A model generated the notes under the pieces. The model did no database searches and was not told the DNA's origin. It worked only from the letters and a program-made list of their open reading frames with translations. DNA of 64,000 nucleotides from Gallaecimonas mangrovi (lineage in GTDB: Bacteria > Pseudomonadota > Gammaproteobacteria > Enterobacterales > Gallaecimonadaceae). The DNA lies in the NCBI RefSeq assembly GCF_003367375.1, contig NZ_CP031416.1, positions 1,929,501 through 1,993,500 of the forward strand, read 5' to 3'. A program made the position numbers and the translations under genes. Of the stretch, positions 5,298-8,347 are shown in pieces (the first letter of the stretch is position 1; each line of letters begins with the position of its first letter).

Positions 5298-5513
5298 ATG
5301 GTCGAGTTATTGGATTTTCTTTACGAGCTAGGTCGTGATGCGAGCCTGGTTCGTCAGTTTAATGAAAACCCCCTTGCGTTAATGGCTGCCAAAGGCCTAA
5401 GTGAAGATTGCCAGCAAGCGCTGGTGAATACAGATCTGGCCAAGCTCGGCGTACTGGCGGCTGTTGCGCCAGTGAATTCTATTCAGTCTGTTATTACCAG
5501 TTTCGGAGACTAA
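5298..5513 (+). CDS. SonA-like split-borosin precursor peptide (putative RiPP precursor)
   Basis: This 71-residue protein has an N-terminal helical domain of about 55 residues followed by a short C-terminal tail. The helical pattern (LGRDASLVRQFNENP, MAAKGLSEDCQQALV) matches the LigA-like 'borosin binding domain' of split-borosin precursors such as SonA of Shewanella oneidensis, which as I recall is nearly the same length and also ends in a short beta-branched core and Gly-Asp. The candidate core is residues 61-71, containing I62, V65 and I66 and ending F-G-D. Start: AAGGTGA lies seven bases upstream of ATG 5298. A stop codon directly abuts the GTG of the next gene, and a borosin-type methyltransferase lies two genes on. 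Without that partner this would be an unremarkable hypothetical. The methylation sites and the mature product are inference. Confidence 0.78.
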   Translation: MVELLDFLYELGRDASLVRQFNENPLALMAAKGLSEDCQQALVNTDLAKLGVLAAVAPVNSIQSVITSFGD

Positions 5514-7262
5514 GTGTCGAAGCTGGTTACCCGCCTAGGGATAATAGTCTTACTGCTTGTTTCCTTAGGCGGGCTTGTTGAAGTCGCAAAGGCTGCTGAG
5601 AGTGGCAATGATATCGAGCAGCTATTGGCAAAGGCCGAAGCCAGCCGCGTTAAAGACCCAGCCAATACTCAAGCCTTACTCGAAAAACTCGCTAACGAAA
5701 TTTCCCACGGAACCGATGACGAGCTTATCCGCTACCAGCTGTTAACAGCGCACCAACTGTTATTGCGGGGCCAGTACACGGATGCCATCACCTCGTTAAA
5801 GCAGGTGCTCGCCAGCACCGACAATCCTAACCGTAAAATGCGTGCGCTTTATTTATTGGCGCAGGCTGAAGGCATTTTGAGCCACTTTGACGCTAGCTTT
5901 GAATACATCATGCAAGCCAGCGAACTGTATTCAAAACTCACCGAAAAACAGGCCAAGGTCGATTACTTTTTCATCATGACCTACATGTACAGCCGTGTTG
6001 ATGACTTTGATACGGCGCTCAGTAATGCCGAGCACTTGGTCAAGTTGGCGGCAGACGGTGACCCTTATCAAAAATGCATCGCTCAACAATCCTTAACCAC
6101 TGTCTATTCCATGGAACACAGCATGGCTAAAGGGCTAGATGCAGCCAAGAAACAAATTGCGCTTTGCCAAACCAGTGGTGGCGCGCTTTATGTTGCTGAC
6201 GCTAACCTTTTTATTGGCCGCTATTATTTTTCAAAAAATCAGCCTACCGAAGCGCTAACGTCATTTTTAAAAGCCAAAAATGGTTTTGATGATGTCGGTT
6301 ATAAAACCGGCCAAATAAGTACCAGCGTTGGTATTGCCAAAAGCTTTTTTGCGGTGGGTAACAAAGCGCTGGCCTATAGCTGGGCCAATAAAGCGCTGGA
6401 AATGATAGACAGCCAAAACCAGTGGAAGGAACAAGCTGAGCTCTACCAATTGCTGGCAAAGATCACCGCAGAAAAGAGTGACAATACCTTGGTGATGTAC
6501 ACCGAGAAATATGCTCATGCGGTGGAGGTGCTGGCCAATGAAAGCAAAAACACCCGGCTGTCCTACTTACAAGCCAAGCTGCGTTTTGACACCCAGCGCC
6601 AGCGTATCTCGTTGCTGGAGCAGCAGAACCTCTTATTAAAACTGCAAGATGCCAATGCCAAGCAACATATCTGGCTGATGGTACTGGGCCTGATTGCCAT
6701 TGCGGCAGTTTGTGCTTCCCTTGGGCTGCTGCTGATGCGTAATCACCGCCAGCAAAAACGTTTAAGAAACCTCACCGAGCATGACAGCCTTACCGAGCTA
6801 TTGAATCGGCAAACGCTTTTAAAAAGGGCGGAGTTACTGAGCAGTACAGGCAAGCCGGTAGCGGTGGTGGTGGCCAGTGTTGACGACTTTTCGCGTTTTA
6901 ACTTGCAGTACGGTATGCAAACGTCTGACCGGGTAGTGCGGCGGGTTGCAGAACGCTTTGAAAAGGCGTTTGGAAGCTTGGGCATTGTTGGGCGGCTGGG
7001 AGCGGCGGAATTAGCCGTGGTGGCGCTAGACGTTGAACCCGAACAGGTACATGACGCTGTGCGTCTTTGTCAGCGCCCCGGTATGAAAGGCGCCGATGCC
7101 AATTTGGATTTATTGTATTCCATCAGTTTTGGTTTGGCGCTGGGCCACGGGGATGAGAGTTTTGATTTTCTGCTGCAACAGGCCCAAAAAGCCTTAAAAG
7201 AAGCAAGGGAAAAGGGGCAAAGTTGTCTGGATATGACCAAGGAGAAGGAGACGCTGTCATGA
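5514..7262 (+). CDS. Membrane TPR protein with degenerate GGDEF domain, in the borosin-like operon
   Basis: This is a 582-residue protein. A signal sequence (about 5-27, ending VAKAAE) precedes about 350 residues of TPR-like helical repeats predicted to be periplasmic. A transmembrane helix follows (386-408, after a short coiled coil), then a cytoplasmic GGDEF-fold domain (about 421-575) that starts HDSLTELLNR. The domain looks catalytically dead: the signature GGDEF reads GAAEL (496-500), and the first metal-binding Asp of the usual DxD segment is replaced by S455. It therefore probably works as a sensor or scaffold rather than a diguanylate cyclase. It starts with GTG directly after the precursor stop (CGGAG five bases before) and its stop overlaps the methyltransferase start as ATGA, so all three genes should be co-translated. 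Confidence 0.85.
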   Translation: MSKLVTRLGIIVLLLVSLGGLVEVAKAAESGNDIEQLLAKAEASRVKDPANTQALLEKLANEISHGTDDELIRYQLLTAHQLLLRGQYTDAITSLKQVLASTDNPNRKMRALYLLAQAEGILSHFDASFEYIMQASELYSKLTEKQAKVDYFFIMTYMYSRVDDFDTALSNAEHLVKLAADGDPYQKCIAQQSLTTVYSMEHSMAKGLDAAKKQIALCQTSGGALYVADANLFIGRYYFSKNQPTEALTSFLKAKNGFDDVGYKTGQISTSVGIAKSFFAVGNKALAYSWANKALEMIDSQNQWKEQAELYQLLAKITAEKSDNTLVMYTEKYAHAVEVLANESKNTRLSYLQAKLRFDTQRQRISLLEQQNLLLKLQDANAKQHIWLMVLGLIAIAAVCASLGLLLMRNHRQQKRLRNLTEHDSLTELLNRQTLLKRAELLSSTGKPVAVVVASVDDFSRFNLQYGMQTSDRVVRRVAERFEKAFGSLGIVGRLGAAELAVVALDVEPEQVHDAVRLCQRPGMKGADANLDLLYSISFGLALGHGDESFDFLLQQAQKALKEAREKGQSCLDMTKEKETLS

Positions 7263-8023
7263 GTCTGGTCATTGTTGGTTTAGGCATTACCTTAGGCAAA
7301 CATTTAAGTGAACGTGCGCACAGCGAAATCGACAGTGCTGACACGGTATTTGCGCTAGTTGATGGTCTTGCCCTGGCCTGGCTGCAAAAACAGCGGCCAG
7401 ACATGATTTCCCTGCATCCTTTTTATCAGCAGGGTGAAACCCGGTTACAGAGTTACCAGTTAATGCGCGACCGCGTTATGGATGCTGTGAAGGAAGGTGG
7501 CCGTGTTTGCGCTGTCTTTTATGGGCATCCTGCGGTGTTTGCCGATGTACCACATATGCTGATGAAAGCCGCGGACGCTGCCAACATCAACGCCAGGCTC
7601 GACCCTGGTATCTCGGCTGATGCCTGTCTCTATGCTGACCTTGGCCTTGACCCTGGCCGGCGCGGTGTCACCGGTATGGAGGCCACCCAGTTTTTGATTT
7701 TTAAACGGCAAATTGATCCCGGCAGTTTACTGATCCTTTGGCAGGTTGGGGTGACGGGCGATTTGACCTTAAAGCGTTTTGATACCGAGCCTAACCGGTT
7801 GGCACTGCTGACCGAAAAACTCTGCCAATGGTATCCCAACGATCACGAAGTGATTTTGTACGAAGCCAATATTTACCCTATTGGCGAGTGCCGGGCTGAC
7901 TATATTCCGTTAAGCGAGCTAGCAAACCAACCTACCAGTCAAATAACCACCCTGGTGGTGCCGCCCTTAACCGAACCTTTAGCGGTCGATCATTTATGGC
8001 GACAGAGACTGGAGGCACTTTAG
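7259..8023 (+). CDS. Borosin-type peptide backbone alpha-N-methyltransferase (SonM/OphMA-like)
   Basis: This is a 254-residue enzyme of the tetrapyrrole (corrin/porphyrin) methylase fold, predicted to use SAM. It shows borosin-enzyme signatures rather than those of cobalamin enzymes: FYGHPAVF (87-94), PGISADACLYADLGLDP (116-132), EATQFL and ILWQVG. The catalytic residues established for the fungal OphMA (Y66, R72, Y76, Y98) align with Y56, R62, Y66 and Y88 here, each offset by exactly ten. No precursor is fused at its C terminus, so it would act in trans as in split borosins, on the SonA-like peptide encoded at 5298. The start is ATG 7259, with AAGGAGAAGGAG eight bases before it, overlapping the upstream stop. 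No corrin pathway gene is nearby. Confidence 0.88.
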   Translation: MSLVIVGLGITLGKHLSERAHSEIDSADTVFALVDGLALAWLQKQRPDMISLHPFYQQGETRLQSYQLMRDRVMDAVKEGGRVCAVFYGHPAVFADVPHMLMKAADAANINARLDPGISADACLYADLGLDPGRRGVTGMEATQFLIFKRQIDPGSLLILWQVGVTGDLTLKRFDTEPNRLALLTEKLCQWYPNDHEVILYEANIYPIGECRADYIPLSELANQPTSQITTLVVPPLTEPLAVDHLWRQRLEAL

Positions 8024-8066: not shown

Positions 8067-8318
8067 ATGAAGCCCTGGATCCTTCCCATTGTTGTTGCGG
8101 CATTATTAACAGGCTGCTCGAAGGTCACTGTGAAAAATTACAACGAGCTCAGTGTGGGTATGAACAGAGATAAAGTCGAAGATATCTTAGGCTCACCCAA
8201 TAACTGTGGCGATGCGGTATTAAAGGCGCAGTCCTGCCAATGGAAAGATGGCAAGAAAACGATAACGGTACAGTTTTTAGGCGATACCGTGGCAGTGTAT
8301 AGCCGCCAAGGATTTTAA
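8067..8318 (+). CDS. Small lipoprotein, DUF3862/SmpA-like fold
   Basis: This 83-residue protein has a short lipoprotein signal: basic start, hydrophobic core, and the lipobox LLTGC with Cys18. It is followed by a compact domain with the pattern YNELSVGMNRDKVEDILGSP, typical of the two-layer BLIP/SmpA-like (DUF3862) lipoproteins. Two more cysteines (about 47 and 57) could pair. It begins 43 bases after the methyltransferase stop with a clear TTAGGAGAG ribosome site and ends at a shared terminator, so it may be the last gene of the borosin-like operon or may have its own promoter. No role in peptide modification or export can be claimed from sequence. Related small lipoproteins occur widely in marine gammaproteobacteria. 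Confidence 0.75.
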   Translation: MKPWILPIVVAALLTGCSKVTVKNYNELSVGMNRDKVEDILGSPNNCGDAVLKAQSCQWKDGKKTITVQFLGDTVAVYSRQGF

Positions 8319-8347
8319 AAAGCCGCCCAAGGGCGGCTTTTTTATAA
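8316..8347. terminator. Bidirectional terminator between lipoprotein gene and bioA
   Basis: An AAAAGCCGCCC/GGGCGGCTTTT stem with a short AA-type loop, A-rich on the left and T-rich on the right, lies between two convergent genes and can serve both. Confidence 0.85.

Follow-up and report, generated by a model that had tools for sequence, protein, structure and literature searches.

Three tightly coupled genes at positions 5298-8023 of the window (the whole stretch of 64,000 nucleotides that was analysed) very probably form a type IV, or split, borosin cassette, in which a membrane protein, G, is coupled to a precursor peptide, A, and a peptide methyltransferase, M. This judgement leaves aside the question of what ligand G might bind. 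The assignment of A as a SonA-type precursor and of M as a SonM-type enzyme, together a "split borosin", is well supported by sequence comparison: the locus encodes an enzyme of the OphMA/SonM family with its active-site residues and no fused core, and a discrete precursor lies in the same operon. The features of the locus are as follows.

5298-5513, + strand: sonA-like precursor gene (A); ATG start, 71 aa; borosin-binding domain (BBD) at about aa 1-53, then a linker and a C-terminal core
5481-5510, + strand: predicted core IQSVITSFGD, aa 62-71, at the position of the SonA core
5514-7262, + strand: TPR-TM-GGDEF membrane protein gene (G); GTG start, 582 aa; Pfam GGDEF and TPR; AlphaFold mean pLDDT 90; in related loci beside or fused to the methyltransferase
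5535-5594, + strand: N-terminal hydrophobic segment of G (signal peptide or anchor), aa 8-27, by hydropathy
5601-6503, + strand: TPR superhelix, predicted periplasmic, aa 30-330, from the AlphaFold model and Foldseek
6075-6077, + strand: codon of Cys188 in the TPR domain, conserved in 123/123 aligned TPR-GGDEF proteins
6165-6167, + strand: codon of Cys218 in the TPR domain, likewise conserved in 123/123
6669-6737, + strand: transmembrane segment, about aa 386-408 (hydropathy segment 382-411)
6777-7223, + strand: GGDEF domain, aa 422-570 (Pfam GGDEF, E=3.7e-19)
6999-7013, + strand: degenerate active-site motif GAAEL replacing GG(D/E)EF, by motif reading
7259-8023, + strand: SonM-like peptide backbone N-methyltransferase gene (M); ATG start, 254 aa; phmmer matches to SonM and OphMA
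8067-8318, + strand: small BamE-like lipoprotein gene, 83 aa (Pfam BamE, E=3e-5)
8322-8343, + strand: likely intrinsic terminator, GCCGCCC-AA-GGGCGGC-TTTTTT, read directly in the sequence

The window is part of one complete 4.07 Mb chromosome, and the adjoining genes (asnS and the biotin operon) are ordinary. The three open reading frames lie where the earlier note had placed them and are coupled as it described: the GTG of G begins at the base right after the TAA stop of A, and the ATG of M overlaps the TGA of G as ATGA (4 bp). A four-gene transcript is possible, since M is followed by the BamE-like gene and then by a strong hairpin and a run of T; the hairpin was missed by a pattern scan that required a minimum loop of 3. 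The BamE-like gene also lies downstream of M in three other loci (L034, L035, L036) and was not found in the remaining loci examined, so that it is possibly the last, lineage-specific fourth gene of the operon, kept only in the window's genus. The A-G-M arrangement is retained in three of the four other genomes of the genus that were searched. Compared with congeners, the window's A, G, and M show dN values of 0.2-0.7, with dS above 1 or saturated; wherever dS could be estimated, dN lies far below it in all three genes. This constraint, with the retention of the genes among congeners, argues that the operon is not a chance assembly.

The methyltransferase and its precursor

By sequence, M is placed in the SonM-type family of backbone N-methyltransferases. 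Its best match is the solved SonM (7ltc_A; phmmer E=4e-62), with the OphMA-type fungal enzymes second at about E=2e-33. Residues Y56, R62, Y66, and Y88 are invariant in an alignment of 11 diverse homologues and correspond to Y58, R67, Y71, and Y93 of SonM, the residues studied in PMC8429565. The chain of 254 aa ends about 17 residues past the domain and carries no fused clasp or core. M also matches Pfam TP_methylase (E=2e-16), the parent superfamily, a match that would suit a tetrapyrrole methylase of cobalamin or siroheme synthesis as well. Such a corrin or porphyrin methylase is nevertheless so improbable that it was rejected: the best match is not a cobalamin/siroheme equivalog, the NCBIfam models CobI, CobF, CobM, and CobJ reach only E=0.02-0.1 against the value for SonM, the borosin residues are invariant, and a SonA homologue is linked to the gene. 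The comparison with TP_methylase subfamilies had been recommended in the earlier note, whose identification of a borosin-type enzyme without fused substrate is upheld by it.

The same holds for the 71-residue protein that was proposed there as a SonA-type precursor. A matches SonA (PDB 7ltc_B) over the borosin-binding domain (phmmer E=2.9e-7), has the same length, aligns with SonA of S. oneidensis, and shares an operon with M. It is the sole gene of its kind in the genome, and no signal peptide was found in it. In SonA the core comprises residues 62-71, and methylation occurs at L63 and I65 (PMC8429565). Two pairs in A, S64/I66 and Q63/V65, are aligned or equidistant to L63/I65, and because both match, the exact sites are ambiguous; methylation is likely to fall around V65/I66 and two residues before. 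I66 is nearly invariant in the alignment that includes SonA, and throughout the A-G-M clade to which the window belongs the cores follow approximately the motif (T/N)xx(I/V)x(A/S/T)(F/Y). As judged from the alignment, this conservation looks unlike that of a diversifying toxin. Methylation of the backbone of A by M can be predicted with high confidence.

Other loci hold further kinds of precursor. A second class in M-A-G loci (L041-L047, L113, and others) carries, after the BBD, a motif like (V/I)CxxxPAEDD and then an extended acidic tail, in place of the short hydrophobic core. Two or three precursor genes may also stand beside one methyltransferase gene (L058:7310-8065; L122:8005-9764; L064:6632-7109).

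Association of the membrane protein with borosin genes

Neighbourhoods were rebuilt for 124 M genes. A TPR gene adjoins M or is fused to it in 118 of them (105 with GGDEF), counts that are not independent because the loci are related, were drawn from best hits with a bias to close homologues, and include duplicates (L037=L079, L042=L129). M-A-G is found in 71 cases and A-G-M in 22; in 25 more, A precedes a fusion of G and M. These fusions, about 25 in all, are open frames of 816-1142 aa with A directly upstream, and two of them lie at the end of a contig. Among the six exceptions are two loci at contig edges, one with a divergent TPR-GGDEF gene, and one with a GGDEF fragment. From the 53 GGDEF matches in the window's genome, a GGDEF gene would be expected by chance among four neighbours in about 5% of loci, and G is the only one of the 53 that has the TPR half. 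The idea that M merely happens to lie near one of the genome's numerous GGDEF genes was rejected on this ground and on that of the association in 118 of 124 loci.

The association extends to gene content across genomes. Of 296 genomes searched in the order, 70 carry an M homologue. A contig scan with a single enzyme query returned no matches, and one with an alignment query found M homologues to be widespread in Lysobacterales and other Proteobacteria. The TPR module occurs in 71 of the 296; both are present in 64, M alone in 6, the TPR module alone in 7, and neither in 219 (relatedness uncorrected). One congener genome (G060) that lacks M also lacks the TPR module. The TPR family is not exclusive to borosin loci, an idea that was rejected on the seven genomes with the module and no detected M; in the six of these that were opened (L165-L170), no M or A was found near the TPR proteins. 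The occurrence of G's family without borosin genes nearby is a point against coupling. In L165-L173, where neither M nor A could be detected, the relatives of the TPR protein include several tandem pairs of about 600 aa.

In the enzyme tree the window belongs to a starred clade supported by an SH-aLRT of 98, whose 32 rows are all A-G-M or fused. The fusions make up one starred group inside this clade, except for the truncated row L101, and from this nesting the fusion probably arose out of the overlapping A-G-M order. Apart from M, A, and G, no family was found to be conserved across loci; no exporter, protease, or immunity gene recurs among the loci, and the other clusters had the look of antisense or flanking open reading frames. 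Divergence of M is correlated with that of the TPR domain (r=0.81) and of the GGDEF domain (r=0.80), values that do not separate sensor from output. An AlphaFold model of a natural G-M fusion reached a pTM of 0.46, with the methyltransferase part modelled too poorly to judge its contact with the GGDEF domain. On these comparative grounds, G in all likelihood functions together with A and M as a regular part of the cassette.

The same gene is found in the model system. SonM and SonA of Shewanella oneidensis MR-1 (SO1478/SO1479) constitute a type IV split borosin (PMC8429565). In the genome with a 100% SonM match (G345, locus L164), sonM and sonA are followed, directly past the sonA stop, by a gene for a TPR-TM-GGDEF protein of 596 aa with an intact GGEEF. 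The two systems thus share a separate methyltransferase with the same catalytic residues, a precursor of about 71 aa with BBD and core, and a TPR-TM-GGDEF gene that completes the operon. They differ in gene order (M-A-G there, A-G-M in the window), in the GGDEF motif (GGEEF there, GAAEL in the window), and in the core (YLVISHGNGD there, that of A in the window). The earlier note had contrasted an adjacent precursor and enzyme in Shewanella with a pair interrupted here by an apparently undescribed membrane protein gene. The adjacency is real; the novelty of the interruption is not supported, since the TPR-GGDEF gene stands third in L164 and the contrast reduces to a change of gene order within one three-gene cassette. 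The view of the membrane gene as an insertion was accordingly rejected, given the S. oneidensis operon, the A-G-M order across the clade, and the many G-M fusions.

Sensor architecture and output domains

The domain that precedes GGDEF in G, left unnamed in the earlier note, is a TPR superhelix. A Foldseek search of the PDB with this half gave as best matches Rap of phage Phi3T with its pheromone (TMt 0.63), NprR (0.57), and LGN; the C-terminal half matched diguanylate cyclases. Cys188 and Cys218 are 30 residues apart, on neighbouring antiparallel helices in the model, and a disulfide between them is likely from their modelled positions. The two hydrophobic segments, the basic stretch after the second, and the invariant cysteine pair together favour a disulfide-bonded TPR domain outside the cytoplasm, and a periplasmic location is held to be highly probable.

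Whereas the sensor is constant, the output domain has been exchanged. The TPR protein ends in HisKA/HATPase in the deep-branching loci L057, L059, L062, L066, L070, and L071, sometimes with a receiver and Hpt. L057 lies within the GGDEF clade and keeps the cysteine pair with a HisKA output, which indicates that the output was swapped and the sensor retained. TPR-only proteins are encoded in L048 and L072. Proteins of this kind, about 350-370 aa and without GGDEF, often stand in tandem beside borosin genes (L048:4496-6676; G106, G135, G161).

The GG(D/E)EF motif is intact in nearly all of 124 full-length proteins, and its apparent death is the distinctive trait of the window's genus, as read from the motifs of four members: GAAEL in the window, and GAAEF, SGAEF, and CGAEF in the others. 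G therefore lacks the motif of an active diguanylate cyclase, and the description of a degenerate GGDEF in a membrane protein is confirmed (motif R-L-GAAEL), the domain itself being real by its Pfam match. G might on this account be a decaying remnant in the genus, with only A and M still functioning. The loss in all four congeners would fit decay, as would the lower identity to the closest congener in the GGDEF part (52%) than in the TPR part (70%), yet decay is quite improbable: all four keep the reading frame, the cysteine pair, and the operon coupling, dN is below dS where dS is estimable, and the TPR domain is the better conserved of the two. Low dN together with the loss of the motif indicates that G is maintained without it, which would fit a function that lies in the TPR half or in binding by the GGDEF half.

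Proposed mechanism and known systems

Of the mechanisms considered, the likeliest is a signalling module, with the TPR domain as a reader of the methylated core. The BBD of A would bind dimeric M, which would move methyl groups from SAM to backbone amides of the C-terminal core of A (about residues 62-71). G would span the inner membrane with its TPR domain outside and its GGDEF domain inside; the TPR domain would read the methylated core, either free or still on its leader, and would then switch the cytoplasmic output domain. This output would be an active diguanylate cyclase in most relatives and a histidine kinase in the deep relatives; in the window the catalytically dead GGDEF would act by binding and not by synthesis of c-di-GMP. 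The step in which the peptide is the TPR ligand is tentative, though slightly favoured over the reverse direction, from sensor to methyltransferase. Among solved structures the TPR half is most like proteins that bind peptides (the receptors Rap and NprR, and LGN), a likeness that was counted for the peptide-to-sensor reading; the TPR superhelix is a generic fold, however, so that the resemblance says little about the ligand. The main difficulty is how a leaderless peptide would cross the inner membrane, given that A lacks a signal peptide and the locus does not encode an exporter. N-methylation favours membrane permeability in general (PMC8429565), a statement that carries no evidence for the peptide of the window.

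Two other directions of the argument have to be weighed against peptide-to-sensor signalling. The fusion of the two proteins would be explained just as well by control of M by G, with the TPR domain sensing an envelope signal and switching methylation through c-di-GMP or GTP binding by GGDEF or through direct contact, so that M is the output domain. The natural fusions do put M at the sensor's C-terminal output end, and in the window the two genes overlap. Such control is plausible at somewhat lower odds than the peptide as ligand, because in M-A-G lineages G is last and unfused, those kinase versions that carry a receiver and Hpt resemble output chains complete in themselves, and co-expression of SonM with SonA is enough to give methylation (PMC8429565). 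Borosins are, on the other hand, a natural-product family (PMC8429565), and GGDEF proteins commonly regulate; the peptide might then be an ordinary secreted product, antibiotic or metallophore-like, with G regulating only expression or export of the operon. This is unlikely in view of the conserved core, the position of G inside the operon and sometimes fused to M, and the lack of a recurring protease, exporter, or immunity gene among the loci.

The presence of a constant sensor beside the enzyme, or fused to it, suggests that the peptides work in cell signalling. A broader proposition is more speculative than the ligand step itself: that the split borosins of Proteobacteria are a form of peptide signalling, with a backbone N-methylated ligand, a dedicated periplasmic TPR receptor, an interchangeable output, and sender enzyme and receptor sometimes fused. 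Bacterial split borosins are widespread, and no biological role was given for them in the literature surveyed. A constant membrane-sensor partner, present also in the model Shewanella operon, offers a direct genetic and biochemical handle on that role, and the question to ask becomes which signal is passed, no longer which toxin is made.

Borosin types V-X are reportedly the subject of Imani 2022 and Cho 2022. A literature search whose scope did not extend to these two found no paper linking borosins with TPR or kinase receptors and none on SO1480. The legend of Fig. 1 in PMC11395268 lists GGDEF among borosin architectures, so the association with GGDEF is at least partly published. As far as that legend goes, the likeness to the window is a GGDEF domain in at least one borosin type; the published type may correspond to the fusion of TPR, GGDEF, and methyltransferase that occurs, among the loci analysed, in Luteimonas, Rubrivivax, and others. 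The window differs in its separate proteins and its degenerate GGDEF.

The module resembles the RRNPP systems in its TPR superhelix, for which Rap and NprR are top PDB matches, and in a small linked peptide gene. RRNPP receptors are cytoplasmic and belong to Gram-positive bacteria or phages. G, in contrast, does not fit the pattern of a receptor in the cytoplasm whose target is DNA or a response regulator: it has N-terminal hydrophobic and transmembrane segments, a TPR domain that is predicted to be periplasmic and bears a conserved cysteine pair, and a GGDEF output (or, in relatives, a kinase), and its peptide is expected to be N-methylated. Fungal OphMA/dbOphMA (types I-III) share a homologous methyltransferase and its catalytic residues; their precursor is fused to the enzyme, and that of the window is separate.

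Some loci depart from the simple cassette. Tandem methyltransferase genes occur in L071:6122-7778, and whole cassettes are repeated in L139:3780-10059 (M-A-G twice) and L109:2154-7765 (two A genes plus G-M fusions). L073:585-2516 encodes a protein of 643 aa with a divergent methyltransferase in mid-chain and a BBD-like stretch after it, and looks like a fused bacterial borosin.
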